Below are positions 30,928 to 53,180 of a stretch of 64,000 nt of DNA, piece after piece. The DNA is from Deuterostichococcus epilithicus (lineage: Eukaryota; Chlorophyta; Trebouxiophyceae; Prasiolales; Stichococcaceae). The translations under genes and the position numbers were made by a program. The stretch is taken from positions 1,178,012-1,242,011 of the forward strand of contig JAVTLE010000004.1 in NCBI GenBank assembly GCA_033439295.1, in the 5' to 3' direction. Numbering within the stretch: position 1 is the first letter of the stretch; the number at the start of each line of letters is the position of its first letter. The notes under the pieces are model-generated. The model was given only the letters and a program-made list of their open reading frames with translations. It did not search any database and was not told the origin of the DNA.

Positions 30928-31314
30928 TGGAAAGGGCAAGTTGGACACGACGAGGGTCGTCTAGATGCTGCGAATTGTGAAGGATATTCAGCCCTGATCC
31001 GCTTCGTCCCGCCTCCATGGAGATTTGGCCCCGGATGATGGATGAATCAGTGGCATTGACACAGGTTGTTGAAGGTTCACGGCTCCAACACGGACGCTGT
31101 AGACGCAGAGTCCGGTGCGTAAGAGCTCGGCACAAGACCCGATTGCCAGCGGGACGGCATGTCATTTGTGACAGCAATCAGCGCCGCCGCAAGAGTTTAC
31201 ACCTTTCCAGCCTCACTCAGGCTGATTACGGTCGAGGCAGAAAGTAAATCCGATGATGGCCGTGTCCGAACTTGTCGCGATGATTCCCGCAAGGTTGTCA
31301 TATGATGTATTGAC
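30928..31314. other. Intergenic spacer before the repeat cluster
   Basis: I see no gene in these roughly 390 bp. It holds the DNAJC9-like 3' UTR and leads into degraded LINE sequence. Confidence 0.5.
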
Positions 31315-31625
31315 TAGCGCCTCCAGCACGTGGAGCTTCTGCTGGGGCGATGCCACGGTCGAGGCGACAGCAGCTGCCCCCTTGCCAGCTTGTTTCTGCG
31401 GCATTGCGCCGATTGCTGCACGGAGCTAGAGGGCTGAGGCTCGAGCTCTTCGTGAGGGATTTTGAGACAGAGGGCGCCTTGCTTATGGGACTTTTGGGGT
31501 CAGCATCGGAGTAGATAGAGATTTTAATTTGTGTGTTCAGGTTTTGGAGTGGTGTGCCTCGCGGAGTCTTGCGATTGGAGCGGCTAGCTCTTATGCCGGG
31601 GGCACTCTAGACATGTTGCCATACA
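31315..31625 (+). mobile_element. Diverged LINE 3' fragment (old copy)
   Basis: This matches the end of the LINE ORF2 and its 3' UTR (compare 38080-38410), but with many substitutions and small indels. It is among the most decayed copies in the window and marks the left edge of the cluster. Confidence 0.7.
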
Positions 31626-31647
31626 CCATCTGCATGTCGTGGGTGGG

Positions 31648-31940
31648 TGCGTTGAGCGTGAAAAGTGGAAGAATCTGAAACAAGAGGATTAGTTGTGAAA
31701 GTGGAACTAAATCTACTTATATACACAACCAAGAGATGATGATTGGAGTGTCGCCCGAAGGGTGATTCAAAACGATGGATGATTGCCAAGGCAATGCGAA
31801 AGCAGGGCAGTCATGTTTGACTATAGCCTAGATCACTCATTGTTTTTGTCCGCATGGGGAATCGATCTCGCGACCCCTTGATGGGTATTTTTCCGTTTTC
31901 CAACACGTTGTGGGTGTGGAGCGTGAAAAGTGAAGAACCT
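31648..31940 (-). mobile_element. Diverged tRNA-derived SINE, followed by a partial second unit
   Basis: The order matches the SINE at 45884-46142 on the opposite strand: GTTGTGAAAGTGGAA-like segment, TATATACACAACCAAGAG, and a B-box-like GGAATCGATCTCGCGACC near 31858-31875. At about 31910 the 3' part of a second unit begins directly after it. Confidence 0.65.
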
Positions 31941-32091
31941 ATTTTGCCATAGACCATCTGCCACCACCTGCCACCCGCCGTCCACCACCACCACCTTCGC
32001 CGTCTGCCACACACCACCCATCACCTTCGCCGTCACCCATCACGAACCGCCACCCCCACTTATCGCCACTCACCACTCGACGCGGGTGCTG

Positions 32092-32165
32092 ACTGAGGTG
32101 GCGATTGACGCAAACCTGCACAGCAGAGATCCGAAGTGCAGCGACGCGGACATCGCGCAGGTAAG
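32092..32165 (+). other. Possible captured exon-like fragment
   Basis: A short open segment reads TRVLTEVAIDANLHSRDPKC-like sequence and then meets a good GTAAGC donor at about 32160. It is not LINE or SINE sequence. It could be a remnant of a host gene between repeats; no partner exon was found. Confidence 0.25.
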
Positions 32166-32255
32166 CTGCCAACCTTCGGATCGTCACATGCGTCACCGAG
32201 AAATCCTTCTGAACAGCGGGAGGGTGGGAAAAGCTTCAGAACCCTCTCCGCTTTA

Positions 32256-32328
32256 GACATGTTGCGCAATCAGTCATCCCGCAGCCCAGGCAGGACTTGA
32301 CTGCACAGTATGTAACCAAGTCCAAGCC
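32256..32328 (+). mobile_element. Short LINE 3' terminal fragment
   Basis: Carries the 3' UTR motif ATGTTGCGCA followed by an internal deletion and the terminal CAGTATGTAACCAAGTCC tail. Confidence 0.7.
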
Positions 32329-32331
32329 CAA

Positions 32332-32448
32332 GCTTGGGGGTGGTGGAGCGTGAAAAGTGAAAGAACCTTAGACCGGAAGGTTGGTTGTGAAAGTGGAATT
32401 AAATCCACTTACATACACAACCAAGAGTTTAGGGTTTAGGGTTTAGGG
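32332..32448 (-). mobile_element. 5'-truncated SINE joined to three TTTAGGG telomere repeats
   Basis: The SINE 3' part (GGTGGTGGAGCGTGAAAAG through ACACAACCAAGAG) ends at 32427. It is followed directly by three perfect TTTAGGG units (32428-32448), after which LINE 3' UTR resumes. In the SINE sense, CCCTAAA repeats sit exactly at its truncated 5' end. Confidence 0.85.
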
Positions 32449-32811
32449 AGGTTAGGCTTAGCATGTGTTTTTCAGTCCTTGGCTTTTGTGTTTGGTCTGT
32501 TTCCACCAGCATGCAGGGCGCCTCACGGCGTTTTCGGTCCCAGCGAGCCAGAGAGCTCGGCGCCTTGTGCGCAACTAGTCCTGTATGTCTGCGCGGGGTT
32601 TACTGGGTTTACCCGCGGGTGCTGTGGCACATGACTCTATTATGACTGGACATGGTTGCCGTCGTTTTGGCCTGCTCGACGCCCTTTCCGTTTGTTCTTC
32701 CAGCTTGTCGCTTGCTGTTGCGCATTCCGACCGCCTTCGGGCCTGTGCTATAGTCAGCCACTTGACTGCACAGTATGTAACCAAGTCCAAGTCCAAGTCC
32801 AAGTCCACTAC
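32449..32811 (+). mobile_element. 5'-truncated LINE copy, 3' UTR only
   Basis: Begins at the AGGTTAGGCTTAGCA block of the 3' UTR and ends with four to five TCCAAG units. Matches 38440-38790. Confidence 0.85.
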
Positions 32812-33005
32812 GCTGTTTACTAGCTTGCCACCCGACACCCACCGCCCGTCACCCGCCGTCATCCGCCACCCGCCACCCGCCCACACAGTGTTTTCGAACA
32901 CTCACGACCACCCATCACTCACCACCCCTCGTCTCTAGCCGCCACCTGCCACCGCTTGCCGCCGTCAGCCGCCACCTCCTGCCAGCCCCCATCCGCCACC
33001 TGCCA
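32812..33005 (+). repeat. CCACCYG-type minisatellite
   Basis: Imperfect heptamer-like repeats (CCACCTG, CCACCCG, CCGTCAC). The block shares specific sequence, including GTGTTTTCGAACACTCACG, with 45249-45470, so the two derive from one repeat. Confidence 0.75.
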
Positions 33006-34706
33006 CTTGGACTTGGACTTGGTTACATACTGTGTCAAGTGGCTGACTATAGCACATGCCCGAAGGCGGTCGGAATGCGCAACAACAAGCGACAAGCTGG
33101 AAGAACAAACGGAAAGGGCGTCGAGCAGACCAAAACGACATCGGCAACCATGTCCAGTCATAGAGTCATGTGCCACAGCACCCGCGGGTAAACCCAGTAA
33201 ACCCCGCGCAGACATACAGGACCAGTTGCGCGCAAAGCGCCGAGCTCTCTGGCTCGCTAGGACCGGAAACGCCGTGAGGCGCCCTGCATGCAAACAGGCC
33301 AAACACAAAAGCCAAGGATTGAAAAACACCTGCTAAGCCTGACCTCCCGCTGCCAAGGCTGCGGGATGTCCGACTGCGCAACATGCCTAAAGTGCCCCCG
33401 GCACCTGAGCTAGCAGCTCCCATCGCAGGATTCCGCGAGCGCTATGGCACACCACTCCGAAACCCAAACACAGAGAATGAAAAAGAATGAAATCGCCATC
33501 TACCCCCATGCCGACCCCAAACGTCCCGACAGCAAGGTGCCCTCTGCCTCGAAAGCATGATGATGATAGGCCTCATTGAGAGCTCGAGCCCAAGCCCTCT
33601 AGCTCCGCGCAGCGATCGGCGCAATGCCGCAGAAACACCCCCAAGCTGGCAGGGTCCTGCTGCATGAACGCCTCGACTGTGGCGTCGCCCCGGCTGAACA
33701 GCTCCACCTGCTGGAGGCGCTGGTCTAGCAGAGCAGAACACCCCCAGAGCATGTGCTCTGCGTCATCAACCTCGCCGCTGTCGCAGCGCTGACAGCTGCG
33801 CTGCTCGCGCGGCAGACCGGCCCACCGCCCTGTCTCCACCCGCAACCAATGGGAGCCGGTGCGAAACCGCGCCAGCCGAACGCGGCCGGGCCTGGAGGCC
33901 ACCGCCTGCAGTAACATAGCTGGTTCGTAGGCACCAAAAGCCAGAGGGCCCCGAATCTGCAGCCACTCGCGTACCTTGCGGGCGTCGCTGCCATTCACCG
34001 ACTTAAAGTGTCGGCGCTGCAGCACCCGCCGTGGCTGCGTCAGGGTCGATGTGCTGCGGCACACCGTCAACAATGGGGGACATGAAGTCCAGGAACGAGG
34101 CCACCTGGGCTGCCCAACAGGCCGAGTGGATGCCGCCGCCGCGGCCGGCCATGCTGACGTTCTCGAGGAAGGCTTGCTTGGTCAGCCGCGTGTCGGGCAT
34201 GTCCACCAGCCGGTTCCAGAAGCGGCAGATCAGCGTCACTGCTGTGTGCATCGCCTCAAAGCGGCCCGCCTCGCCGAGTAGCGCCGCCTTGGGCGTGCCT
34301 GCACGCACGCCAAGAAGAGCCCGCAAAAAGCTCCTGGATCCTGGATGAAAGTTCCTGGATGGATCTGTACCTGATGGAGGTTGCAGCTTGTGTTGCCGCG
34401 ACCCCTGCAGACATCCATGAGGCAGGACAGCAGTTCGACTCTTTCATTGAGCGCACGCAGGCACAGGTGCTGGCGTCGCAGCCAGACTGGTGGGACAAGG
34501 AGCTGGCCAATGGCCGTCGCGCAGCGCTGCAGGCCATGCGCAGCGATCCGCGTTCGCACGCGGCTCGCGCGGCGCGCGCTGAGTACCAGCGCGCGCTGCG
34601 GCGCAAGCTGAGCCGCTGGACGCGCAGCCAGGCCATCGCCCTCCTCACCCTGGCCCAGGCCAACCCGGCGCGCTTCTGGGGCAATTTAAAGTTGCCAAGA
34701 AGCGTG

Positions 34707-35831
34707 TCTTGGACTTGGACTTGGACTTGGTTACATACTGTGCAGTCAAGTGGCTGACTATAGCACAGGCCCGAAGGCGGTCGGAATGGGGGTGGTGGAG
34801 CGTGAAAAGTGAAAGAACCTTTGACCGGAAGGTTGGTTGTGAAAGTGGAATTAAATCCACTTAGATACACAACCAAGAGATGGTGGAGTGTCACCTGAAG
34901 GTGATCGATAGCGATGGGTGATTGCCGAAGCAATGCGAAAGCAGGGCAGTCATATGTGTGACTATGACCCAATTCACTCCTTTTTTTTGTCCGCATGAGG
35001 AATCGAACTCGAGACCCCATGGGTATTTTTCCGTTTTCCAACCACTTGGGGTTTAGGGTTTTAGGAATGCGCAACAGCAAGCGCCAAGCTGAGGGAACAA
35101 ACGGAAAGGGCGTCGAGCAGACCAAAACGACATCGGCAACCATGTCCAGTCATAGAGTCATGTGCCACAGCACCCGCGGGTAAACCCAGTAAACCCCGCG
35201 CAGACATACAGGACCAGTTGCGCACAAGGCGCCGAGCTCTCTGGCTCGCTGGGACAGGAAACGCCGTGAGGCGCCCTGCATGCTGGTGGAAACAGGCCAA
35301 ACACAAAAGCCAAGGATTGAAAAACACCTGCTAAGCCTGACCTCCCGCTGCCAAGGCTGCGGGATGTCTGACTGCGCAACATGCCTAAAGTGCCCCCGGC
35401 ACCTGAGCTAGCCGCTCCCATCGCAGGATTCCGCGAGCGCTATGGCACATCACTCCGAAACCCAAACACAGAGAATGAAATCGCCATCTACCCCCATGCC
35501 GACCCCAAAAGTCCCGACAGCAAGGTGCCCTCTGCCTCGAAAGCATGACGATGATAGGCCTCATTGAGAGCTCGAGCCCAAGCCCTCTAGCTCCGCGCAG
35601 CGATCGGCGCAATGCCGCAAAAACACCCCCAAGCTGGCAGGGTCCTGCTGCATGAACGCCTCGACTGTGGCGTCGCCCCGGCTGAACAACTCCACGTGCT
35701 GGAGGCGCTGGTCTAGCAGAGCAGAACACCCCCAGAGCATGTGCTCTGCGTCATCAACCTCGCCGCTGTCGCAGCGATGACAGCTGCGCTGCTCGCGCGG
35801 CAACCCGGCCCACCGCCCTGTCTCCACCCGC
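34707..35831 (-). mobile_element. LINE copy C (minus), 5'-truncated, nested in copy B
   Basis: Tail TTGGACTTGG at 34707, 3' UTR and the ORF2 C-terminal end to about 35831, where ORF2 of copy B resumes. Joining the flanks rebuilds the copy B frame except for about three missing bases. No target-site duplication is seen. The ORF2 end here has a few differences from copy B. Confidence 0.8.
34789..35063 (-). mobile_element. SINE with telomere-like end, nested in LINE copy C
   Basis: A SINE of about 260 bp bounded by the target duplication GGAATG (34783-34788 and 35064-35069). The B-box-like GGAATCGAACTCGAGACC is at about 35000-35017. The outer end reads GGGGTTTAGGGTTTTA, telomere-like sequence at the 5' end of the SINE in its own sense. 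Confidence 0.85.
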
Positions 35832-36329
35832 GCTGTGCCTGATGATGCCATGGCTGACTACTTTCGTGATCTGCTGGGGCAGCAGCCCGTTATCCCTTCT
35901 GATGTGCAAGAGGACCCGACAGCCGACGCCGGCGCCGCGCCACCAGCTGCAGATGGTTCCGAGCTGAATGTGCAGTTCACAGGTGCCTCTGTCACCAAGG
36001 GCATTGAGTCCCTGCATGGTGGCAAGTCAACTGTGGGTGTGCTAAAGCTTGATGCCCTCTCTGTTGCTGCTGCTGAGCTCGCGCCGTGTCTTGCTGCCGT
36101 CTTCAATGCTTGCCAGAGGGTGAGGGCGCTGCCGCGCGCTTGGGCGCTTTGCGGCATCACCCCCATCCACAAGGGTGGCGACGTTACTGACCCTGGCAAC
36201 TACCGCGGCATCGCGGTGGGCTCTCTTTTAGCAAAGCTGTACGCAGCGATGCTCAACGAGAGGCTCATGGAGTGGACCGAGCGCCACGGGCTGCGTGCCC
36301 GCGGACAGGCTGGCTTCCGGAGGGACCAC

Positions 36330-36610
36330 TTGGGGGGTGGTGGAGCGTGAAAAGTGAAAGAACCTTTGACCGGAAGGTTGGTTGTGAAAGTGGAATTAAA
36401 TCCACTTATATACACAACCAAGAGATGAGGGGGAGTAGCACCCGAAGGTGATCGATAGCGATGGGTGATTGCCGAAGCAATGCGGAAGCAATGCGAAAGC
36501 AGGGCAATCATATGTATGACTATGACCCAATTCACTCCTTTTTTTTGTCCGCATGAGTCGTGAATCGAACTCGCGACCTCATGGGTATTTTTTCGATTTC
36601 CAACCATTTA
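36330..36610 (-). mobile_element. SINE inserted in LINE ORF2, with target duplication
   Basis: Bounded by GGACCAC at 36323-36329 and 36611-36617; the intact ORF2 (about 41490) has one copy. The element is about 281 bp in antisense orientation with a B-box-like segment near 36558-36578. Its outer end reads TTTAGG overlapping the duplication. Confidence 0.85.
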
Positions 36611-36632
36611 GGACCACCGCACCACTGACCAG

Positions 36633-38222
36633 GTGTTTGTGCTCCGCACGCTCATTGAGCGAGCCCGTGCAGACAAAAAGCCGCTGTATGTATGTTACGT
36701 TGACTTCAAAAAAGCATATGACACCATTCCACGTGACCTGCTGTGGCACAAACTGCAACGCATCGGGGTGCATGGGGACTTCTTGCGGGCGGTGCAGGCT
36801 TTGTATGCGGAGGTGCCCATGGGGGTGCAGTTTGCTGACGGCATGTCTGCCACATTCGATTCCCTGCTAGGTGTGAAACAGGGCTGCCCACTTTCTCCAA
36901 CCCTGTTTGGCATCTTCATTGATGACTTCCAGGCTGAGCTCGAAGCCGGCTCCGCCGGCTTCGCCCTTCCCACACTGTCCGGCGTGCAGACGCCGGCGCT
37001 CTTCTACGCGGACGACCTGGCACTGGTGTCCACCACCGTCGCCGGCCTGCAGGCGCAGCTGGACCTCTTGCAGGCATACAGCAAACGCTGGCGGCTCACC
37101 GTCAACGTTAAGAAGACGAAGGTGGTGGTTTACACCACCGCGCGCGGCGCGGTGGCGGCGCCACAGCTCACCTACATGTCCGCCCCCATCGAGGTGCTTG
37201 ACACGTTCAGGTACCTGGGGGTTGACCTGCACAGCACGAAGCCATTTGCTTCGAGCGCAGCGGACCGGGCGGCGTCCGCCCGACGCGCCGCGCTCGCACT
37301 GCATAATCGCTGTCGTGATCTCGGGCTGCATGATCCTGCATTGCTCATGCATCTCTTTGACGCACTTGTGCGCCCGGTGATGTTGTACGGTGTGGAGACT
37401 TGGGGGCCTGGGGCGCTGTGTGGCAAGGCCAGCGGCATGGAGGCTTGTGAGAAAGTGCAGAGGAGCTTTTTGCGGGCTCTTCTTGGCGTGCGTGCAGGCA
37501 CGCCCAAGGCGGCGCTACTCGGCGAGGCGGGCCGCTTTGAGGCGGCGCACACAGCAGTGACGCTGATCTGCCGCTTCTGGAACCGGCTGGTGGACATGCC
37601 CGACGCGCGGCTGACCAAGCAGGCCTTCCTCGAGAACGTCAGCATGGCCGGCCGCGGCGGCGGCATCCACTCGGCCTGCTGGGCAGCCCAGGTGGCCTCG
37701 TTCCTGGACTTCATGTCCCCCATTGTTGACGGTGTGCCGCAGCACATCGACCCTGACGCAGCCACGGCGGTGCTGCAGCGCCGACACTTTGAGTCGGTGA
37801 ATGGCAGCGACGCCCGCAAGGTGCGCGAGTGGCTGCAGATTCGGGGCCCTGTGGCTTTTGGTGCCTACGAACCAGCTATGTATCTGCAGGCGGTGGCCTC
37901 CAGGACCGGCCGCGTTCGGCTGGCGCAGTTTCGCACCGGCTCCCACTGGCTGCGGGTGGAGACAGGGCGGTGGGCCGGTCTGCCGCGCGAGCAGCGCAGC
38001 TGTCAGCGCTGCGACAGCGGCGAGGTTGATGACGCAGAGCACATGCTCTGGGGGTGTTCTGCTCTGCTAGACCAGCGCCTCCAGCACGTGGAGTTGTTCA
38101 GCCGGGGCGATGCCACAGTCGAGGCGTTCATGCAGCAGGACCCTGCCAGCTTGGAGGTGTTTCTGCGGCATTGCGCCGATCGCTGCGCGGAGCTAGTGGG
38201 CTGGGGCTCGAGCTCTCAATGA
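36633..38222 (+). CDS. LINE ORF2, reverse transcriptase to C-terminus (copy B)
   Basis: 529 residues open without a stop. They contain reverse transcriptase blocks YVDFKKAYDTIPR, GVKQGCPLSPTLFGIFIDD and the catalytic FYADDLAL, then RLTVNVKKTKVVVY, and a C-terminal zinc-knuckle-like C-x2-C-x9-H-x4-C (CQRCDSG to EHMLWGC). The upstream ORF2 part lies across the SINE at 36330-36610. Enzyme role: target-primed reverse transcription of LINE RNA. Confidence 0.9.
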   Translation: MFVLRTLIERARADKKPLYVCYVDFKKAYDTIPRDLLWHKLQRIGVHGDFLRAVQALYAEVPMGVQFADGMSATFDSLLGVKQGCPLSPTLFGIFIDDFQAELEAGSAGFALPTLSGVQTPALFYADDLALVSTTVAGLQAQLDLLQAYSKRWRLTVNVKKTKVVVYTTARGAVAAPQLTYMSAPIEVLDTFRYLGVDLHSTKPFASSAADRAASARRAALALHNRCRDLGLHDPALLMHLFDALVRPVMLYGVETWGPGALCGKASGMEACEKVQRSFLRALLGVRAGTPKAALLGEAGRFEAAHTAVTLICRFWNRLVDMPDARLTKQAFLENVSMAGRGGGIHSACWAAQVASFLDFMSPIVDGVPQHIDPDAATAVLQRRHFESVNGSDARKVREWLQIRGPVAFGAYEPAMYLQAVASRTGRVRLAQFRTGSHWLRVETGRWAGLPREQRSCQRCDSGEVDDAEHMLWGCSALLDQRLQHVELFSRGDATVEAFMQQDPASLEVFLRHCADRCAELVGWGSSSQ

Positions 38223-39689
38223 GGCCTATCATCATCATGCTTTCGAGGCGGAGGGCACCTTGCTGTCGGGACTTTTGGGGTCGGCACGGGGGTAGATGGC
38301 GATCTCATTCTCTGTGTTTGGGTTTCGGAGTGGTGTGCCATAGCGCTCGCGGAATCCTGCGATGGGAGCGGCTAGCTCAGGTGCCGGAGGCACTGTAGGC
38401 ATGTTGCGCAGTCAGACATCCCGCAGCCTTGGCAGCGGGAGGTTAGGCTTAGCAGGTGTTTTTCAGTCCTTGGCTGTTGTGTTTGGCCTGCTTCCACCAG
38501 CATGCAGGGTGCCTCACGGCGTTTCCGGTCCCAGCGAGCCAGAGAGCTCGGCGCTTTGTGCGCAACTGGTCCTGTATGTCTGCGCGGGGTTTACTGGGTT
38601 TACCCGCGGGTGCTGTGGCACATGACTCTATGACTGGACACGGTTGCCGATGTCGCTTTGGTCTGTTCGACGCCCTTTCCGTTTGTTCTTCCAGCTTGTC
38701 GCTTGCTGTTGCGCATTCCGACCGCCTTCGGGCCTGTGCTATAGTCAGCCACTTGACTGCACAGTATGTAACCAAGTTGAAGTCCAAGTCCTCTGCACTT
38801 TCTCACAAGCCTCCATGCCGCTGGCCTTGCCACACAGCGCCCCTGGCCCCCAAGTCTCCACACCGTACAGCATCACCGGGCGCACAAGTGCGTCAAGGAG
38901 ATGCATGAGCAGTGCAGGATCATGCAGCCTGAGATCACGACAGCGATTATGCAGTGCGAGCGCGGCGCGTCGGGCGGACGCCGCCCGGTCCGCTGCGCCC
39001 GACGCAAACGGCTTCGTGCTGTGCAGGTCAACCCCCAGGTACCTGAACGTGTCAAGCACCTCGATGGGGGCGGACATGTAGGTGAGCTGTGGCGCCGCCA
39101 CCGCGCCGCGCGCAGTGGTGTACACCACCACCTTCGTCTTCTTGACGTTGACAGTGAGCCGCCAGCGCTTGCTGTAGGCCTGCAAGAGGTCCAGCTGCGC
39201 CTGCAGGCCGGCGACGGTGGTGCACACCAGTGCCAGGTCGTCCGCGTAGAAGAGTGCCGGCGTCTGCACGCCGGACAGTGTGGGAAGGGCGAAGCCGGCG
39301 GAGCCGGCTTCGAGCTCAGCCTGGAAGTCATCAATGAAGATGCCAAACAGGGTTGGAGAAAGTGGGCAGCCCTGTTTCACACCAAGCAGGGAATCGAATG
39401 TGGCAGACATGCCGTCAGCAAACTGCACCCCCATGGGCACCTCCGCATACAAAGCCTGCACCGCCCGCAAGAAGTCCCCATGCACCCCGATGCGTTGCAG
39501 TTTGTGCCACAGCAGGTCACGTGGAATGGTGTCATATGCTTTTTTGAAGTCAACGTAACATACATACAGCGGCTTTTTGTCTGCACGGGCTCGCTCAATG
39601 AGCGTGCGGAGCACAAACACCTGGTCAGTGGTGCGGTTGTCCCTCCGGAAGCTATGCTCTTTACTAGCTTGCCACCCGACACCCACCAC

Positions 39690-39740
39690 TTGGGGGTGGT
39701 GGAGCGTGAAAAGTGAAAGAACCTTTGATCGGAAGGTTGG
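39690..39740 (-). mobile_element. SINE 3' fragment
   Basis: About 50 bp from the SINE 3' end (TTGGGGGTGGTGGAGCGTG to GGAAGGTTGG) joined directly to the tail of the next LINE copy. Confidence 0.75.
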
Positions 39741-40125
39741 ACTGGACTTGGTTACATACTGTGCAGTCAAGTGGCTGACTATAGCACAGGCCCGAAGGCG
39801 GTCGGAATGCGCAACAGCAAGCGACAAGCTGGAAGAACAAACGGAAAGGGCGTCGAGCAGAATCAAAACGACATCGGCAACCATGTCCAGTCATAGACTC
39901 ATGTGCCACAGCACCCGCGGGTAAACCCAGTAAACCCCGCGCAGACATACAGGACCAGTTGCGCACAAAGCGCCGAGCTCTCTGGCTCGCTTGGACTGGA
40001 AACGCCGTGAGGCGCCCTGCATGCTGGTGGAAGCAGACCAAACACAACAGCCAAGGACTGAAAAACACCTGCTAAGCCTAACCTCCCCCTGCCAAGGCTA
40101 CGGGATGTCTGACTGCGCAACATGC

Positions 40126-42717: not shown

Positions 42718-42971
42718 GCTTGGACTTGGACTTGGTTACATACTGTGCAGTCAAGTGGCTGACTATAGCACAGGCCCGAAGGCGGTCGGAATGCGCAACA
42801 GCAAGCGACATGCTGAGGGAACAAACGGAAAGGGCGTCGAGCAGATCAAAACGACATCGGCAACCATGTCCAGTCATAGACTCATGTGCCACAGCACCCG
42901 CGGGTAAACCCAGTAAACCCCGTGCAGACATACAGGGCCAGTTGCGCGCAAAGCGCCGAGCTCTCTGCTGG
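42718..42971 (-). mobile_element. LINE 3' end inserted in ORF2 of copy D
   Basis: A 5'-truncated LINE copy of about 250 bp (tail CTTGGACTTGG at 42719 to AGCTCTCTG). The ORF2 endonuclease lies on both sides: LLDLCIST upstream and MRIANGRVSGDE downstream. Confidence 0.85.
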
Positions 42972-43602
42972 TGGAGATGCACAGATCGAGCAGCTCCGTG
43001 CCCCACAGGTTTGGCCGCGCCAGCGGGTCGCGACTGTGTCGCTGCGACCGCACTGGCTCGGCGCCGGTGGACAGGAAAGGCTCCCGAATGGGGTGAGTGA
43101 TGGTCCCGGGAAAATCCGGGAATGTGGCTGTGCGTGCATTCAGGTCCCCAATGACAAAGACATGACCCAAGCGCGAGGTGGCCCCAACCTCCTCACGCAA
43201 TGCCTCCCAAACCGCAGGTCCCTTCCCAGCTAGTGCTGAGCTGCCCTCTGGCGGAATGTAGCATGCAAACATGTATGCATCCTCCTCCTGCCCGATGCAG
43301 CCATCAAGACGCAACAAGGCATAGCAGCCCTGTGGCTCTGTCGACAGCACCGTGACCTTTAGTGCCAGCGCTTCGGCGACGTAGACGGCGATGCCGCCTC
43401 GCGTGCCGCCGTGCTGAAGCTTTCGGCTCCGAGGCAGATTGAGGATGGCGGTGTAGCCTGCCAGCTCCGGCGCGTCAGCGCCCTCCCGCAGCCACGTCTC
43501 CGTGAACACCAGGACATCGTAGGCCGCTCCCTGGATGGCCTGCGTGATAGCAAATGCATCTCTTGAGAGCCAGCCATGGACGTTCAGGTGCAACACGGAC
43601 AA
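42972..43602 (-). CDS. LINE ORF2 N-terminus: AP-type endonuclease (copy D)
   Basis: ORF2 starts at ATG 43602 with SVLHLNVHGW and contains VLVFTETWL, GGIAVYVAE and FVIGDLNART, the N-terminal blocks of the exonuclease/endonuclease/phosphatase fold that nicks target DNA. It is separated from the rest of ORF2 by the nested insertion at 42718-42971. Confidence 0.9.
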
Positions 43603-43653
43603 TGAGCTGTGAGGGGACCGGACGGCGCCGGGCGCAGCCCGGCCCCAACACCC

Positions 43654-44807
43654 CTAGCAGACATCGATGCGTGCAGCAGCAGGCATGGTGGTGGGGTCGG
43701 CGGCCGCCGCAGCCGTCGGAGGGGTAAAGCCCTCTGCCGGCGCCTGGGCGTCCGGCGATGCAGTGGGTGCAGACTCGTCATGCAGGACACTGAAGAATGA
43801 TGGCACTCCCAGGGGGACTGCAACAGGAGGAGGGCGGAAAGCGCGGTGAATCGGCGAGCGCCGCTGGTCGGCGGTGCGCTGTCGGGCGAAGTCCAGCGCG
43901 GCCTTGGCCGCGCGGCGCGCGGTCGCCACCTCCTGCGGCGTGAGCAGCTGCTCCTGGCGACGTGCTAGTCGCAGCTGCGCGGCGGCGCCGCGCTGCTGCG
44001 GCGGCAGGCTGCGGTAGATGCTGACGGGGCAGTCATGCGGCAGCAGCGCTTTGGCGCTGCGCATCGCACGCTCGACAGACCGGTCCGCGAGCCGGATGAC
44101 CGCCAGGCCATCGCGGTGCCCGCTGACGCGCAGCACCGTGATGAGCGGTGCTGCGTCAGCCATGCCGAGGCTCTCGGCGGCAAAGTCTGCCACTGTCGCG
44201 TGCGCCGCATCGCGGCTGCTGCCGGCGGCAAAGTCGAGTCCAGAGATGGCCCAGTCGGGGCTCTGTGGCGCTGGCGCTGGCTGCTGCAGCTGCGAGCTGT
44301 GCGGTGGAGCCGCGGCCGCGGCTGCCGGCCCTGAGGCCGGCGTCGGCGGCGCAGCCCGGCTGATGGCCTGGGTGTGCGGCCCGTCCAGCGCCGCTGTGGG
44401 CTCGAGGCCAGCCGCCTGCGCAACGCCGTAGCTCGCCGCGTGCGCCTCCACGACCTGCACCGTCAAGCTGACGACCTCCGTCACCTGCACCACAATGCGA
44501 ACCCTGTCAGCGTCACTCGCCGCTACCTGAGCGCGCAAGCGAGCCACCTCATTCTCAGCCGTCCTGGCACGCACGAGCAAGCTAGCCAGCTCTGCGTGGG
44601 AGGGTGACTGCGAAGTGGAGAACACGTGCGTGCTAGACTCGGACAGGTTTTGCAATGCGGAGGCATGCCGCTCCGAAGCCTGCTGCAGCCGCTGCTGAGC
44701 CTGGCTGCTGCTGTGGCTCCGTGGGGGGCTGCGATGCAGGCGCGCAGGACAGGGATGACGATGCGTCACTGGCATGAGGGGCAGGGAAGGAAGGCAGGTC
44801 TGCTGCG
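43654..44807 (-). CDS. LINE ORF1 (copy D), 5' end replaced by SINE sequence
   Basis: About 385 codons of ORF1 sequence ending in a TAG, about 50 bp before ORF2. It has a heptad-like helical stretch (ASLLVRARTAENEVARLRAQV), a Pro/Ala-rich middle and an RRM-like segment (LITVLRVSGHRDGLAVIRLADRS, then CPVSIYRSL). No CCHC knuckle is visible. Coiled coil plus RRM is typical of ORF1 RNA chaperones. The open frame continues upstream into SINE sequence (MCIEVDLIPLSQP, from 44844), so the present start is not original. Confidence 0.8.
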
Positions 44808-45112
44808 GTTGTGAAAGTGGAATTAAATCCACTTCTATACACAACCAAGAGATGGTGGAGTGTCACCCGAAGGTGATCGATAGCGATGGGTGATTGCCAA
44901 AGCAATGCGAAAGCAGTGCAGTCATATGTATGACTATGACCCAATTCACTCCTTTTTTTGTCCGCATGAGGAATCGAACTCGAGACCCCATGGGTATTTT
45001 TCCGTTTTCCAACCACTCGGGGGTGGTGGAGCGTGAAAAGTGAAAGAACCTTTGACCGGAAGGTTGGTTGTGAAAGTGGAATTAAATCCACTTATATACA
45101 CAACCAAGAGAC
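44808..45112 (-). mobile_element. Two SINE units joined head to tail
   Basis: A nearly complete unit (44808-45018, lacking its 3' end) is followed without spacer by the 3' third of another (45019-45112). In the SINE sense the junction reads CCACCACCCCC then GAGTGGTTGG. Confidence 0.8.
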
Positions 45113-45680
45113 CGCCCGTCACCCGCCGTCATCCGCCACCTGCCACCCGCCACCTGCCACCCGCCGCAGCCCACCACCTGGCACTCCTCACCATCCACTG
45201 CTCACCGCCACTTGCCGCCGCCACCTGCCACCTGCCTGCCGCCTACCACCTGCCACCTGCCACTTTGTTGGCTTGCCACCCGACACCCACCGCCCGTCAC
45301 CCGTCACCCGCCGCCACCCGCCACTTGTTGCACAAACAGTGTTTCTAAACACTCGCCACCGCCCACGCAGTGTTTTCGAACACTCACGACCACCCATCAC
45401 TCACCACCACTCGTCTCTAGCCGCCACCTGCCGCCGCTCACCACAGTCAGCCGCCACCTCCTGTCACNCCCCACCCGCCACCACATGCCGCACGCCGCCA
45501 CCCGCCGACACTGCCACCTGCTCCTTGCCATCCTCCCACCGCCTTCCTACCCGCCGCCTCGTCACCGTCACCACCGTACCGCCGCATCACCCCGCCGGAA
45601 CCTTCACCCTCACTGTCATCGTCACCATCCACACCACACACGCAAATACGAAGAAAAACATCCAACCGTCGCCGTCACCA
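45113..45680 (+). repeat. CCACCYG / CACCGT minisatellite block
   Basis: Imperfect short repeats rich in CCACCTG and CCACCCG, grading into CACCGT/CACCAT repeats after about 45540. Shares a specific stretch with 32812-33005. An N lies at 45466. Confidence 0.75.
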
Positions 45681-45883
45681 TCACCATCATCATCACCGAG
45701 AGGGAGAGCACATGGAAGAAGACCGGATTCCACTAATAGCACGGACTCATGTAGAGCCAGGCACCCGCGGAACCCGCTGCCATGGAGGCGTCGACCACAG
45801 ATGACCAGGTGCCCGGCGTTGCGCGTTAGCCGATAGCTGGCGGCGTCAGCCGCCTAGATGTCAGCCATTGCTCCACCACCCCC

Positions 45884-46142
45884 AAGTGGTTGGAAAACGG
45901 AAAAATACCCATGAGGTCGCGAGTTCGATTCATGCGGACAAAAAAAGGAGTGAATTGGGTCATAGTCATACATATGACTGCACTGCTTTCGCATTGCTTC
46001 GGCAATCACCCATCGCTATCGATCACCTTCGGGTGACACTCCCCATCATCTCTTGGTTGTGTATATAAGTGGATTTAATTCCACTTTCACGACCAACCTT
46101 CCGGTCAAAGGTTCTTTCACTTTTCACGCTCCACCACCCCCA
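45884..46142 (+). mobile_element. tRNA-derived SINE, complete-looking reference copy
   Basis: Reads in the SINE sense on the plus strand. The 5' end AAGTGGTTGGAAAACGG resembles a tRNA D-arm (A box), and GGTCGCGAGTTCGATTC at about 45915-45931 resembles the T-arm (B box); their spacing fits RNA polymerase III internal promoters. A tRNA-unrelated body of about 200 bp follows, ending CACGCTCCACCACCCCCA. A remnant of another SINE 3' end (GCTCCACCACCCCC) immediately precedes it. Confidence 0.8.
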
Positions 46143-46639
46143 TTGCGAGCGCCAGCCCTCTGTTACCTTGGGCTCGGTTGCTTTCACCAGCATGCAGGAC
46201 GCCTTGCGGCGGAACAGCCCCAGCGAGCCACAGAGCTCGGCGCCTTGTGCGCTACCGGTCTGCATGTCTGCGCGGGGTTTACTGGAATGACCCGCGGGTG
46301 CCGTGGCACATAGAGACTTTGGCTCCACGTCCTATCTAGCGTGCTAGTTTGTCAGCGGATCGTTCCCGCCGCGTGCGCATGGCTTTGCTGCCGCCGCCGC
46401 CGTGTCCCCGCACTTGCAGGACCGTCAGATAGTTCAGCCTCATCGGGACTATTGCCTTTCGCTAGTCTCATAGGACCTGCATTCCCCAGTGGTTTCAGAG
46501 TCCTCCACCGACATTTTTCGAACGACGATTCCTTTGGAGATTCACCCCGCCGCGCCCTCGTTCACACGTGGAATGCCGCATTGTGCCGCATTGCCTTGTT
46601 CTAGAACTTGGCTTTGGTCTGGACGCCCACTGTAAAAAA
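46143..46639 (+). mobile_element. LINE subfamily with a different 3' end and A-rich tail
   Basis: 46180-46320 is a diverged version of the main LINE 3' UTR (CACCAGCATGCAGGACGCC, TGCGCGGGGTTTACTGG). From about 46320 the sequence is unlike the main family and ends CGCCCACTGTAAAAAA. The same 3' end occurs reversed at 51794-51990. Confidence 0.65.
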
Positions 46640-47563
46640 CTTGGACTTGGACTTGGTTACATACTGTGCAGTCAAGTGGCTGACTATAGCACAGGCCCGA
46701 AGGCGGTCGGAATGCGCAACAGCAAGCGACAAGCTGGAAGAACAAACGGAAAGGGCGTCGAGCAGACCAAAACGACATCGGCAACCATGTCCAGTCATAG
46801 AGTCATGTGCCACAGCACCCGCGGGTAAACCCAGTAAACCCCGCGCAGACATACAGGGCCAGTTGCGCGCAAAGCGCCGAGCTCTCTGGCTCGCTTGGAC
46901 TGGAAACGCCGTGAGGCGCCCTGCATGCTGGTGGAACCAAACACAGCAGCCAAGGACTGAAAAACACCTGCTAAGCCTAACCTCCCCCTGCCAAGGCTGC
47001 GGGATGTCTGACTGCGCAACATGCCTAAAGTGCCCCCGGCATCTGAGCTAGCCGCTCCCATCGCAGGATTCCGCGAGCGCTATGGCACACCACTTCGAAA
47101 CCCAAACACAGAGAATGAAATCGCCATCTACCCCCGTGCCGACCCCAAAAGTCCCGACAGCAAGGTGCCCTCTGCCTCGAAAGCATGATGATGATAGGCC
47201 TCATTGAGAGCTCGAGCCCAAGCCCTCTAGCTCCGCGCAGCGATCGGCGCAATGCCGCAGAAACACCCCCAAGCTGGCAGGGTCCTGCTGCATGAACGCC
47301 TCGACTGTGGCGTCGCCCCGGCTGAACAGCTCCACCTGCTGGAGGCGCTGGTCTAGCAGAGCAGAACACCCCCAGAGCATGTGCTCTGCGTCATCAACCT
47401 CGCCGCTGTCGCAGCGCTGACAGCTGCGCTGCTCGCGCGGCAGACCGGCCCACCGCCCTGTCTCCACCCGCAGCCAATGGGAGCCGGTGCGAAACTGCGC
47501 CAGCCGAACGCGGCCGGTCCTGGAGGCCACCGCCTGCAGGTACATAGCTGGTTCGTAGGCACC
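46640..47563 (-). mobile_element. LINE copy, 5'-truncated (minus)
   Basis: Tail CTTGGACTTGG at 46640, 3' UTR, ORF2 C-terminus with the zinc knuckle, truncated at FGAYEPAMYLQAVAS. It is inserted in the A-tail of the preceding LINE subfamily copy. Confidence 0.85.
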
Positions 47564-48336
47564 AAAAACAAACAAACAAACAAACAAAGCTCGGCGCTTT
47601 GCGCGCAACTGGCCCTGTATGTTTGCACGGGGATTACTGGGTTTACCCGCGGGTGCTGTGGCACATAAGTCTATGACTGGACATGGTTGCCGATGTCGTT
47701 TTGATCTGCTCGACGCCCTTTCCGTTTGTTCCCTCAGCATGTCGCTTGCTGTTGCGCATTCCGACCGCCTTCGGGCCTGTGCTATAGTCAGCCACTTGAC
47801 TGCACAGTATGTAACCAAGTCCAAGTCCAAAGCAGACACGCTTCTTGGCAACTTTGAATCTGCCCCAATTGCGTGCCGGGTTGGCCTGGGCCAGAGTGAG
47901 GAGGGCGATGGCCTGGCTGCGCGTCCAGCGGCTCAGCTTGCGCCGCAGCTTGGTCTTGGGTACATACTGTGCAGTCAAGTGGCTGACTATAGCACAGGCC
48001 CGAAGGCGGTCGGAATGCGCAACAGCAAGCGACAAGCTAAGGGAACAAACGGAAAGGGCGTCGAGCAGACCAAAACGACATCTGGACTTGGACTTGGTTA
48101 CGTACTGTGCAGTCAATCGCCGATTCACCGCGCTTTCCGCCCTCTTCCTGTTGCAGTCCCCCTGGGAGTGCCATCATTCTTCAGTGTCCTGCATGACGAG
48201 TCTGCACCCACTGCATCGCCGGACGTCCAGGCGCCGGCAGAGGGCTTTACCCCTCCGACGGCTGCGGCGGCCGCCGACCCCACCACCATGCCTGCTGCTG
48301 CACGCATCGATGTCTGCTAGGGGTGTTGGGGCCGGG
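47564..48336. mobile_element. Mosaic of short LINE pieces
   Basis: In order: an (AAAC)n tract (47564-47588), a plus-strand 3' UTR with tail (to 47829), a minus-strand ORF2 piece (47831-47949), two minus-strand tail pieces (47950-48082; 48083-48117), and the plus-strand C-terminus of ORF1 (48118-48320, ending ARIDVC and a TAG). Confidence 0.7.
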
Positions 48337-49143
48337 CTTGGACTTGGACTTGGTTACATACTGTGCAGTCAAGTGGCTGGCTATAGCACAGGCCCGAAGG
48401 CGGTCGGAATGCGCAACAGCAAGCGACAAGCTGAGGGAACAAACGGAAAGGGCATCGAGCAGACCAAAACGACATCGGCAACCATGTCCAGTCATAGAGT
48501 CATGTGCCACAGCACCCGCGGGTAAACCCAGTAAACCCCGCGCAGACATACAGGACCAGTTGCGCACAAGGCGCCGAGCTCTCTGGCTCGCTGGGACAGG
48601 AAACGCCGTGAGGCGCCCTGCATGCTGGTGGAAACAGGCCAAACACAAAAGCCAAGGACTGAAAAACACCTGCTAAGCCTGACCTCCCGCTGCCAAGGCT
48701 GCGGGATGTCTGACTGCGCAACATGCCTATAGTGCCCCCGGCACCTGAGCTAGCCGCTCCCATCGCAGTATTCCGCGAGCGCTATGGCACACCACTCGAA
48801 CCCCAAACACAGAGAATGAAATCGCCATCTACCCCCGTGCCGACCCCAAAAGTCCCGACAGCAAGGTGCCCTCTGCCTCGAAAGCATGATGATGATAGGC
48901 CTCATTGAGAGCTCGAGCCCAAGCCCTCTAGCTCCGCGCAGCGATCGGCGCAATGCCGCAGAAACACCCCCAAGCTGGCAGGGTCCTGCTGCATGAACGC
49001 CTCGACTGTGGCGTCGCCCCGGCTGAACAGCTCCACCTGCTGGAGGCGCTGGTCTAGCAGAGCAGAACACCCCCAGAGCATGTGCTCTGCGTCATCAACC
49101 TCGCCGCTGTCGCAGCGCTGACAGCTGCGCTGCTCGCGCGGCG
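48337..49143 (-). mobile_element. LINE copy, 5'-truncated (minus)
   Basis: Tail at 48337, 3' UTR, and the ORF2 C-terminal end up to the zinc knuckle region. It is inserted just after the ORF1 stop of the fragment to its left. Confidence 0.85.
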
Positions 49144-51793
49144 GACTGGTGGGACAAGGCCAGACTGGTGGGACAAGGAGCTGGCCGACGGCCGGCGCGC
49201 AGCGCGGCAGGCCATGCGCAGCGATCCGCGTTCGCACGCGGCTCGCGCGGCGCGCGCTGAGTACCAGCGCGCGCTGCGGCGCAAGCTGAGCCGCTGGACG
49301 CGCAGCCAGGCATTAGGCATGTTGCGCAGTCAGACATCCCGTAGCCTTGGCAGGGGGAGGTTAGGCTTAGCAGGTGTTTTTCAGTCCTTGGCTGTTGTGT
49401 TTGGTCTGCTTCCACCAGCATGCAGGGCGCCTCACGGCGTTTCCAGTCCAAGCGAGCCAGAGAGCTCGGCGCTTTGCGCGCAACTGGCCCTGTATGTCTG
49501 CGCGGGGTTTACTGGGTTTACCCGCGGGTGCTGTGGCACATGACTCTATGACTGGACATGGTTGCCGATGTCGTTTTGGTCTGCTCAACGCCCTTTCCGT
49601 TTGTTCCCTCAGCATGTCGCTTGCTGTTGCGCATTCCGACCGCCTTCGGGCCTGTGCTATAGTCAGCCACTTGACTGCACAGTATGTAACCAAGACCAAG
49701 ACCAAGCTTGTCGCTTGCTGTTGCGCATTCCGACCGCCTTCGGGCCTGTGCTATAGTCAGCCACTTGACTGCACAGTATGTAACCAAGTCCAAGTCCAAG
49801 CCTACACGCATCGGGGTGCATGGGGACTTCTTGCGGGCGGTGCAGGCTTTGTAGGCGGAGGTGCTCATGGGGGTGCAGTTTGCTGACGGCATGTCTGCCA
49901 CATTCGATTCCCTGCTAGGTGTGAAACAGGGCTGCCCACTTATGTCGTTTTGGTCTGCTCGATGCCCTTTCCGTTTGTTCCCTCAGCATGTCGCTTGATG
50001 TTGCGCATTCCGACCGCCTTCGGGCCTGTGCTATAGTCAGCCACTTGACTGCACAGTATGTAACCAAGTCCAAGTCCAAGTCCAAGTCCAACCCTGTTTG
50101 GCATCTTCATGGATGACTTCCAGGCTGAGCTCGAAGCCGGCTCCGCCGGCTTCGCCCTTCCCACACTGTCCGGCGTGCAGACGCCGGCGCTCTTCTACGC
50201 GGACGACCTGGCACTGGTGTCCACCACCGTCGCCGGCCTGCAGGCGCAGCTGGACCTCTTGCAGGCATACAGCAAACGCTGGCGGCTCACCGTCAACGTT
50301 AAGAAGACGAAGGTGGTGGTTTACACCACCGCGCGCGGCGCGGTGGCGGCGCCACAGCTCACCTACATGTCCGCCCCCATCGAGGTGCTTGACACGTTCA
50401 GGTACCCGGGGGTTGACCTGCGCGAGCAGCGCAGCTGTCAGCGCTGCGACAGCGGCGAGGTTGATGACGCAGAGCACATGCTCTGGGGGTGTTCTGCTCT
50501 GCTAGACCAGCGCCTCCAGCACGTGGAGCTGTTCAGCCGGGGCGACGCCACAGTCGAGGCGTTCATGCAGCAGGACCCTGCCAGCTTGGGGGTGTTTCTG
50601 CAGCATTGCGCCGATCGCTGCGCAGAGCTAGTGGGCTGGGGCTCGAGCTCTCAATGAGGCCTATCATCATTATGCTTTCGAGGCAGAGGGCACCTTGCTG
50701 TCGGGACCTTCGGGGCCAGCATGGGGGTAGATGGCAATTTCATTCTCTGTGTTTGGGTTTCGGAGTGGTGTGCCATAGCGCTCGCGGAATCCTGCGATGG
50801 GAGCGGCTAGCTCAGATGCCGGGGGCACTTTAGGCATGTTGCGCAGTCAGACATCCCGTAGCCTTGGCAGCGGGAGGTCAGGCTTAGCAGGTGTTTTTCA
50901 GTCCTTGGCTTTTGTGTTTGGCCTGTTTCCACCAGCATGCAGGGCGCCTCACGGCGTTTCCAGTCCAAGCGAGCCAGAGAGCTCGGCGCTTTGCGCGCAA
51001 CTGGCCCTGTATGTCTGCACGGGGTTTACTGGGTTTACCCGCGGGTGCTGTGGCACATGACTCTATGACTGGACATGGTTGCCGATGTCGTTTTAGTCTG
51101 CTCGACGCCCTTTCCGTTTGTTCCCTCAGCATGTCGCTTGCTGTTGCGCATTCCGACCGCCTTCGGGCCTGTGCTATAGTCAGCCACTTGACTGCACAGT
51201 ATGTAACCAAGTCCCAAGTCCAAGAAGCCATTTGCTTCGAGCGCAGCGGACCGGGCGGCGTCCGCCCGACGCGCCGCGCTCGCACTGCATAATCGCTGTC
51301 GTGATCTCGGGCTTGGACTTGGACTTGGTTACATGGCTGCATGATCCTGCACTGCTCATGCATCTTTTTGACGCACTTGTGCGCCCGGTGATGCTGTACG
51401 GTGTGGAGACTTGGGGGCCTGGGGCGCTGTGTGGCAAGGCCAGCGGCATGGAGGCTTGTGAGAAAGTGCAGAGGAGCTTTTTGCGGGCTCTTCTTGGCGT
51501 GCGTGCAGGCACGCCCAAGGCGGCGCTACTCGGCGAGGCGGGCCGCTTTGAGGCGGCACACACAGCAGTGACGCTGATCTGCCGCTTCTGGAACCGGATG
51601 GTGGACATGCCCGACGCGCGGCTGACCAAGCAAGCCTTCCTCGGGAACGCTTTCGAGGCTTTCGGGGCCGGCATGGGGGTAGATGGCAATTTCATTCTCT
51701 GTGTTTGGGTTTCGGAGTGGTGTGCCATAGCGCTCGCGGAATCCTGCGATGGGAGCGGCTAGCTCAGGTGCCAGGGGCACTTTAGGCATGTTG
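49144..51793 (+). mobile_element. LINE copy E (plus), repeatedly interrupted by its own family
   Basis: ORF2 pieces in collinear order lie at 49144-49310, 49801-49940 (GVHGDFLRAVQAL to GVKQGCPL), 50094-50420 (TLFGIFMDD, FYADDLALV to FRYPGVDL), 51225-51312 (KPFASSAADRAAS) and 51337-51652 (HDPALLMHLFDAL onward). Between them lie LINE 3' ends: 49311-49800, 49941-50093, 50421-51224 and a 24 bp minus-strand tail at 51313-51336. Most end in TCCAAG repeats. The ORF2 pieces are consistent with one original copy. Confidence 0.75.
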
Positions 51794-51990
51794 CTTTGTT
51801 TGTTTGTTTGTTTGTTACAGTGGGCGTCCAGACCAAAGCCAAGTCCTAGAACAAGGCAATGCGGCACAATGCGGCATCCCACGTGTGAACGAGGGCGCGG
51901 CGCGTTGAATCTCCAAAGGAATCGTCGTTCGAAAAATGTCGGTGGAGGACTCTGAAACCACTGGGGAATGCAGGTCCTATGAGACTAGCG
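51794..51990 (-). mobile_element. 3' end of the A-tailed LINE subfamily
   Basis: (TTTG)n at 51794-51815, then ACAGTGGGCGTCCAGACC and about 170 bp matching 46455-46635 in reverse. In element sense the tail is (AAAC)n. Confidence 0.8.
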
Positions 51991-52395
51991 AGGCATGTTG
52001 CGCAGTCAGACATCCAGTAGCCTTGGCAGCGGGAGGTCAGGCTTAGCAGGTGTTTTTCAGTCCTTGGCTTTTGTGTTTGGTCTGCTTCCACCAGCATGCA
52101 GGGCGCCTCACGGCGTTTCCGGTCCCAGCGAGCCAGAGAGCTCGGCGCCTTGTGCGCAACTGGTCCTGTATGTCTGCGCGGGGTTTACTGGGTTTACCCG
52201 CGAGTGCTGTGGCACATGACTCTATGACTGGACATGGTTGCCGATGTCGTTTTGGTCTGCTCGACGCCCTTTCCGTTTGTTATCTCAGCTTGTCGCTTGC
52301 TGTTGCGCATTCCGACCGCCTTCGGGCCTGCGCTATGAGTCAGCCACTTGACTGCACAGTATGTAAACAAGACCAAGACCAAGACCAAGTTCAGA
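51991..52395 (+). mobile_element. LINE 3' UTR copy with variant tail
   Basis: 3' UTR from the GGCATGTTGCGCAGTCAG block to a tail made of AAGACC units instead of AAGTCC. The same variant tail is seen at about 49690-49707. Confidence 0.85.
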
Positions 52396-52495
52396 TCCGG
52401 TGAATAACCCCTTGCGTGATAACAGCGCCAGGATAAGATTGATGTACGGCGGGACACTTAAACACAAGCTCAGCGAATCCCCATGCAGCTTCAGG

Positions 52496-52530
52496 TCAGT
52501 ATGTAACCAAGTCCAAGTCCAAGTCCACGG
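52496..52530 (+). mobile_element. Minimal LINE tail fragment
   Basis: Only CAGTATGTAACCAAG plus three TCCAAG-type units remain. A similar minus-strand fragment lies at 53125-53180. Confidence 0.75.
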
Positions 52531-52914
52531 TCCTGTACCACCCTCTGTGCTGGGGCATTGCAGACACATGATCAGCGCATGGTTGCACGCCAAGCGCGCG
52601 TCGGCGCAGTGCCAGTGTTAGCAGTGTCAGCTTGCAAGGGGGTGGACATGGGCATTGGCACGCATGATGTAGCTGTCTCATCAATGATCGAGGGCAGCAC
52701 TCCTAGGCAACACTCGAGCAGCCGCCGCTGCCAGCTGCACAGGCAATTAGAGTGGCACCTGCGCCGGCTGCGCCGCGTTAAGCATGACTGCAGAAGAAGG
52801 ACGCCAACTCGCTGAACATGGCCTCATCCTCGCCGGCCAGCGGCACCTCGCCGGAGCCGAGCGGATCGCCAACCAGCGGCGGCGGCGGCGGCTGGACCAG
52901 CTGCGGTGCCGGCA

Positions 52915-52915
<1 letters not shown>

Positions 52916-52994
<79 letters not shown>
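52916..52994. repeat. (CTG)26 / (CAG)26 microsatellite
   Basis: About 26 uninterrupted CTG units, the longest pure triplet run in the window. Frames through it give poly-Gln (minus) or poly-Leu/poly-Cys (plus). A gene on the minus strand with LVQPPPPPLVGDPLG and a Q run is possible but unsupported. Confidence 0.9.
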
Positions 52995-53124
52995 ATTAGT
53001 GATCGATTTGTACTGCAGGATTTCTTAACCATCTGGAAGGGAGAGCGTAAGCATTGAACTAGCAGCTGATCTGTAGAGTCTAGTCTAGAGTCTAGAGAGA
53101 GTCAGTGTAGACGCCGCAGAAGAG

Positions 53125-53180
53125 TTGGACTTGGACTTGGTTACATACTGTGCAGTCAAGTGGCTGACTATAGCACAGGC
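53125..53180 (-). mobile_element. LINE 3' tail fragment, right edge of cluster
   Basis: TTGGACTTGGACTTGGTTAC through the AGTCAAGTGGCTGACTATAG block, about 55 bp. No LINE sequence is seen to its right. Confidence 0.85.

Follow-up and report, generated by a model that had tools for sequence, protein, structure and literature searches.

A nested LINE/SINE cluster, one per large contig, as a candidate centromere in the green alga Deuterostichococcus epilithicus

The window analysed here, 64,000 nucleotides of the trebouxiophyte green alga Deuterostichococcus epilithicus (C4:1178012-1242011, on one of the 21 contigs of the 46.79-Mb assembly), contains a block of nested copies of one long interspersed nuclear element (LINE) and one short interspersed nuclear element (SINE), which is a candidate centromere of contig C4. 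Self-comparison of the window sets the first base of the block at 31312 and its last base at 53181 (C4:1209323-1231192, no strand assigned), against 31315-53180 in an earlier sequence-only reading of the same DNA, which had described a LINE/SINE block with sharp edges. Cluster DNA from eight other contigs (C2, C5, C7, C13, C14, C15, C18, and C19) matches 95.0% of this interval, 0% of the left flank, and less than 0.01% of the right flank, so that the edges are indeed sharp. The stretches of at least 30 bases within the block that have no match to DNA of the other clusters are 31941-32250, 52394-52496, and 52532-53121. That reading had also described copies inserted into each other in both orientations and mostly truncated at the 5' end, and this description holds: the LINE copies are mostly 5'-truncated and nested, and the window has 19 LINE-type 3' ends, 10 on the forward (+) and 9 on the reverse (-) strand. 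As these 3' ends occur on both strands with many different flanks, the nesting and the two orientations are real.

At the left edge of the block, an old piece of the LINE 3' untranslated region (3'UTR; 31312-31619, +), recognised by self-comparison, is followed by a diverged tRNA-like SINE copy (31645-31940, -), whose strand was read by eye from the tRNA-like end. Three TTTAGGG telomere units (32428-32448, +) lie between a SINE piece and a LINE piece, and a 5'-truncated LINE copy with a (CCAAGT)n tail occupies 32446-32807 (+). Then come another 5'-truncated LINE copy (33005-34335, -) and the SINE copy whose core was the query of the genome-wide SINE search (34788-35050, -), with telomere-like filler from 35052. 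The TTTAGGG stretches at these two element junctions (32428-32448 and 35052-35065) are reminiscent of a break that telomerase filled or healed; a scan of 13 other cluster loci revealed no such stretch. The next 5'-truncated LINE copy (35830-38791, +) carries a reverse transcriptase open reading frame (ORF; 36633-38222) and a SINE insert (36330-36612), and to its right lies a LINE ORF2 piece antisense to it (38789-39652, -).

The longest LINE copy of the window, copy D (39737-44806, -), has its 3' end at 39737. Its frame at 40126-43602, put forward by the sequence-only reading as ORF2, proved not to be intact: it has four internal stop codons, all within a 249-bp antisense LINE piece inserted at 42719-42967, and about 420 bp are missing at 40331/40333 relative to other copies. 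The ORF2 remnant at 40126-42717 still matches RVT_1, and the ORF1-like frame upstream of ORF2, from 43654 upward, has no Pfam match. Beyond copy D we find a SINE copy with a second partial SINE in tandem (44807-45111, -), a CACC-rich minisatellite that is present in other clusters too (45120-45263, +), a SINE copy (45870-46141, +), two 5'-truncated LINE copies (46639-47567 and 48336-49149, both -), two 94-bp LINE 3' termini arranged head to tail (49611-49801, +), a 5'-truncated LINE copy (50420-51224, +) nested in a LINE ORF2 piece (50087-50421 and 51221-51649), and a further 5'-truncated LINE copy (51991-52386, +). One of the 19 LINE 3' ends, at 52514, consists of tail-proximal bases alone, and the block ends with a 57-bp LINE 3' stub (53125-53181, -). 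An uninterrupted (CTG)26 is present at this right edge (52916-52994), within a 590-bp stretch missing from the other cluster DNA read.

Genes had been proposed on both sides of the block, which Pfam supports for the left side only. Three of the ten left-flank ORFs tried matched Pfam, with methionyl-tRNA synthetase at 19968-20537 and 22239-22982 and DnaJ at 28487-28891; on the right, none of ten ORFs had a Pfam match.

The C13 copy of the LINE has an open frame of 1158 amino acids with matches to Exo_endo_phos (47.6 bits) and RVT_1 (103.6 bits), and the best matches of this ORF2 among solved structures are R2 and human L1 ORF2p. L1-like LINEs generally have an APE-type endonuclease and a reverse transcriptase in ORF2, as this copy does; the candidate clades are L1 and RTE-X. 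A scan of IMG/VR for ORF2 relatives gave one pattern match and no confirmed one. The 3' end of the LINE reads GTAACCAAG and then (TCCAAG)n, giving a (CCAAGT)n tail, in the window and in other clusters alike, and the window contains 21 occurrences of CCAAGTCCAAGT, against a mean of 0.00 over 100 shuffles. The SINE is about 265 bp long, and its copy at 36330-36612 is inserted in LINE ORF2 with a 7-bp target duplication, GGACCAC, identified by eye. The likeness of the SINE to a tRNA is judged by eye, from letters in the reverse complement that resemble A and B boxes; no tRNA was detected by ARAGORN in the window, and an Rfam scan of 31000-53500 gave eight matches up to an E-value of 1, none of them at the gathering score. 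Neither the LINE nor the clusters of this alga were recognised in the open-licence papers covered by our literature search.

An assembly-wide search with copy D, set beforehand as the refutation test for the centromere proposed in the sequence-only reading, returned one cluster per large contig and not several per chromosome arm. Copy-D LINE DNA gave at least 131 matches, all of them falling, on any one contig, within a single interval no longer than 33 kb. Such an interval is present on every one of the 15 contigs that measure 1.6 Mb or more (C1, C3-C7, C9-C15, C18, and C19), plus C2. The latter, a 14.7-kb contig, shares 9.35 kb with C6:345053-354400 in the C6 cluster at 99.7% identity and is probably a redundant assembly piece or, alternatively, a real second copy. 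The 15 clusters measure 10.4-33.1 kb each and total 269 kb, i.e. 0.58% of the nuclear DNA. The sequence searches scored the best candidates (40 of 113 for the copy-D LINE, 40 of 149 for the 3'UTR, and 40 of 68 for the SINE), among which 63 of 63 3'UTR matches and 47 of 48 SINE matches fall within clusters. The LINE 3'-end 24-mer, with one mismatch allowed, occurs at 159 places, and its backward-read control at none; 98 of the 100 matches listed, which are all exact and reach C15 only, are in clusters, a count raised by tandem arrays on C6 and C15. Among the matches listed and the best candidates, the LINE is therefore nearly absent outside the clusters, as expected of centromeres made of clusters of the green-algal LINE Zepp. 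The cluster intervals were set from the same LINE and SINE hits, and the independent fact is the single interval per contig; for 15 randomly placed clusters, the chance of exactly one on each of 15 contigs is about 1e-6. At the contig level, one dense nested cluster per chromosome is what we find on 15 of 15 contigs, and the block is a real structural domain. Cluster DNA was read in part for C2, C4, C5, C6, C7, C13, C14, C15, C18, and C19, with short pieces of C10 and C12, and the clusters of C1, C3, C9, and C11 are known from hits alone. The 29-kb contig C8 has no cluster. C20 (97 kb) and C21 (211 kb) are probably organellar because both are AT-rich at their ends and C21 carries a 475-amino-acid rbcL frame, green-type by eye. 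This frame, the TTTAGGG telomeres, and the cluster layout all point to a green-algal host; GC content is 28-32% at the ends of C21, against 50.7% for the plastid of Coccomyxa subellipsoidea C-169, so that the host is not C-169.

A LINE that inserted widely and survived only in a gene-free, non-recombining locus, centromeric or not, would offer the main alternative explanation of this distribution, which we regard as improbable. Nested insertion into old copies does resemble such a refuge, and protection from purging is how PMC11005252 itself reads centromeric transposable elements. However, other elements persist on the arms. An RVT_1 family search, with 65 of 65 candidates scored, gave 64 matches, 49 in clusters and 15 outside, and among six of these 15 outside loci that were examined, four have an LTR-type (long terminal repeat) RNase H, three of them also a protease, one has a reverse transcriptase alone, and one ORF matched nothing. 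LTR-type reverse transcriptases are thus dispersed at scattered places on chromosome arms, so that arm insertion is tolerated, and only two LINE 3' ends occur elsewhere among the 100 matches listed, both as short fragments. A reverse transcriptase frame at C10:1564803-1565777 lies mostly outside LINE coverage within the C10 cluster and would represent another element in this putative centromere.

The insertion sites bear on how the LINE reaches the clusters. The 37 junctions with an uninterrupted host copy correspond, after merging of repeats, to 31 distinct host sites, and for several other junctions no host was found. No motif common to the 31 sites was seen by eye, and the flanks are often LINE, SINE, or cluster minisatellite DNA. 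Tail and target overlap by at least 1 nt at 20 of the 31 sites, against a proportion of 0.43 in a simulated null (binomial 0.013), and by at least 2 nt at 11 of them, against 0.14 (binomial 0.002); at nine sites the overlap is negative, meaning no overlap or filler. These overlaps agree with target-primed reverse transcription in which little pairing is required and the target is not fixed. Given the lack of a fixed target, confinement to the clusters most likely comes from chromatin, for which CENH3 would be the obvious candidate. The composition of the flanks and the excess of overlap would also be expected if the LINE targeted its own sequence or tail and the clusters had grown from one founder per chromosome. 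We hold this to be very unlikely, given 31 distinct sites sharing no motif by eye, nine of them with no overlap or with filler, and insertions that hit the SINE and the minisatellite as well; a single founder on every chromosome would, moreover, still need explaining.

All 15 clusters are internal, at relative positions of 0.16-0.75, and the contig end nearest to any of them is about 335 kb away (C6). On C4, whose right end bears a telomere, the window cluster is separated from that end by about 719 kb and from the left end by 1.2 Mb. Arrays of the telomere repeat, TTTAGGG, are found at one end each of C1, C3, C4, C5, C8, C10, C13, C14, C15, C17, and C18, and a weaker one on C19. A subtelomeric block, which the sequence-only reading had offered beside a centromere, or a block made by telomere repair is hardly credible. 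It would be favoured by the short TTTAGGG repeats found at two element junctions of the window, but no cluster lies within about 335 kb of a contig end and the 13 other cluster loci scanned lack such repeats; its strong form, a telomere-adjacent block, is refuted by the cluster positions. The centromere reading gains from the same positions.

We consider it quite likely, from sequence and distribution, that the block is a regional centromere or a centromere core, with one LINE and one SINE inserting almost only there, at one locus per chromosome. Several observations weigh against this. No contig has long telomere arrays at both ends, and for this reason "per chromosome" means "per large contig". 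Clusters are missing from contig C16 (1.06 Mb), which shows a telomere at neither end, and from contig C17 (382 kb), which shows one; both contigs are assumed to be arm fragments. A history of wide insertion and survival in a refuge would be expected to leave a similar map, and the scoring of best candidates may miss old or short solo copies. One SINE copy among the 48 matches lies outside the clusters (C14:1637672-1637937; the C14 cluster is about 230 kb away), and the two off-cluster 24-mer sites among the matches listed, C1:2194763 and C9:2348690, are short fragments with LINE spans of 124 and 193 bp. The age of the copies shows no clean gradient from core to edge either: identity to other copies is about 75-77% for the left-edge piece (31312-31619), which is hence older, and 92-99% for most core copies, but the right edge ends in a 57-bp stub at 91-100% and the internal piece 46179-46311 reaches only 82-85%. 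Growth from the inside out is therefore not demonstrated. Finally, the LINE is interrupted at about position 3466/3467 (numbering of the C13 copy) in two pieces of the window, which could reflect a hotspot or a duplication.

A mechanism that would account for a centromeric location can be proposed. The LINE, with its ORF1-like frame, its ORF2 endonuclease and reverse transcriptase, and its hexamer tail, and the putatively tRNA-like SINE would insert almost only at one locus per chromosome. The LINE machinery may recognise centromeric chromatin, i.e. CENH3 nucleosomes or kinetochore factors, rather than a DNA motif, and the SINE would borrow this targeting. Unequal exchange would then amplify some of the insertion products, giving rise to chromosome-specific satellites.

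Two clusters contain arrays of this kind, in which LINE pieces form young satellites. At C6:338851-342926, seven tandem units of 579-585 bp are 97.6-100% alike. Each consists of a 360-bp antisense stretch of the LINE, a sense stretch of its 3' end (about 201 bp), and a tail; the leading tail varies in length from unit to unit. The shape of this unit resembles a 5'-inverted twin-priming product, presumably amplified in tandem afterwards. On C15 (905501-913500), LINE 3' end units of 472-473 bp alternate with units of 406 bp, forming a dimeric higher-order repeat. The longer units (n=3) are 99.8-100% alike and the shorter (n=2) identical, with about 97% identity between the two kinds; flanking units of 405, 474, and 566 bp are less like their kin (98.0, 98.9-99.2, and 97.9-98.1%, respectively). 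We propose, tentatively, that the two elements of these clusters, a LINE unlike the poly(A) Zepp kind and a tRNA-like SINE, are both targeted to centromeric chromatin with no DNA motif as guide, that LINEs adopted centromeres on more than one occasion among green algae, and that insertion products are turning into chromosome-specific satellites on C6 and C15.

Algal centromeres built of LINEs are already known, and what stands out here is the unusual tail, the co-confined SINE, and the nascent satellites. In Coccomyxa subellipsoidea C-169, each chromosome has one Zepp cluster, proposed as its centromere (PMC3446292). These clusters are likewise nested LINEs, one per chromosome and mostly internal, of 1.5-42.3 kb compared with 10-33 kb here (PMC3446292). 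They coincide with local GC peaks (PMC3446292), whereas GC content does not mark the present block, with 0.607 in the cluster against 0.611 and 0.591 in the flanks. The tail differs as well: Zepp ends in poly(A), which within Table 3 of PMC3747384 is found among green-algal L1 families only in L1-1_CR and Zepp, other L1 and RTEX families having other tail repeats, whereas the present LINE ends in (CCAAGT)n and lacks the poly(A) tail of the Zepp/ZeppL family. The attribution of the block to a Zepp type in the sequence-only reading is therefore borne out for the layout only, and not for membership of the family.

In Chlamydomonas reinhardtii, ZeppL is located at 15 mapped centromeres (PMC8226300). 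ZeppL-1_cRei is, like the present LINE, limited to one locus per chromosome, which coincides there with the mapped centromere (PMC8226300, PMC10030371). In contrast to the clusters described here, Chlamydomonas centromeres span about 252-480 kb (PMC8226300, PMC10030371), and the tail is poly(A) (as L1-1_CR, PMC3747384). The Chlorella centromeres are those of another trebouxiophyte and also contain LINE/L1 or RTE-X elements; two species were checked there by CENH3 chromatin immunoprecipitation sequencing, including C. pyrenoidosa, with RTE-X LINEs in all 13 centromeres (PMC11005252). Unlike here, where most of the DNA read consists of one LINE and one SINE, transposable elements are mixed in Chlorella, including LTR/Copia and unknown elements (PMC11005252). 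The Celine LINE of poplar, which has no chromodomain, is similar in that it inserts into other transposable elements and has 84% of its elements in CENH3 domains, but it belongs to a seed plant, is mixed with CRM, and has an AAGA/AATA-like nick site and target duplications of 10-30 bp (PMC11288735). In Asterochloris, RLG_Beelzebufo and RLG_Kyoko also form an autonomous and non-autonomous pair limited to one locus, on most chromosomes, but these are LTR elements with a chromodomain and not a LINE and a SINE (PMC12542154). Auxenochlorella, on the other hand, has AT-rich centromere candidates described as devoid of repeats (PMC12633428).

If CENH3 were present at the clusters, this alga would be a further green alga in which a single LINE accounts for nearly all of the centromere DNA. 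The LINE may belong to a lineage apart from Zepp, and such a lineage would argue for repeated adoption of centromeres by LINEs. With sizes of 10-33 kb, the clusters are small; they are also assembled and contain many young copies, so that both the way a LINE finds centromeres and the birth of satellites could be tested in a compact genome, in which the cluster set already maps about 15 candidate centromeres.

Two minor observations lie apart from the clusters. C7 and C9 share a 2.3-kb terminal block, 99.7% identical, with pieces also at C19R and C7R, which is probably a subtelomeric repeat family. At window positions 3687-4874, a proline-rich stretch that appears formin-like by eye is encoded by DNA repeats of 45-51 bp.

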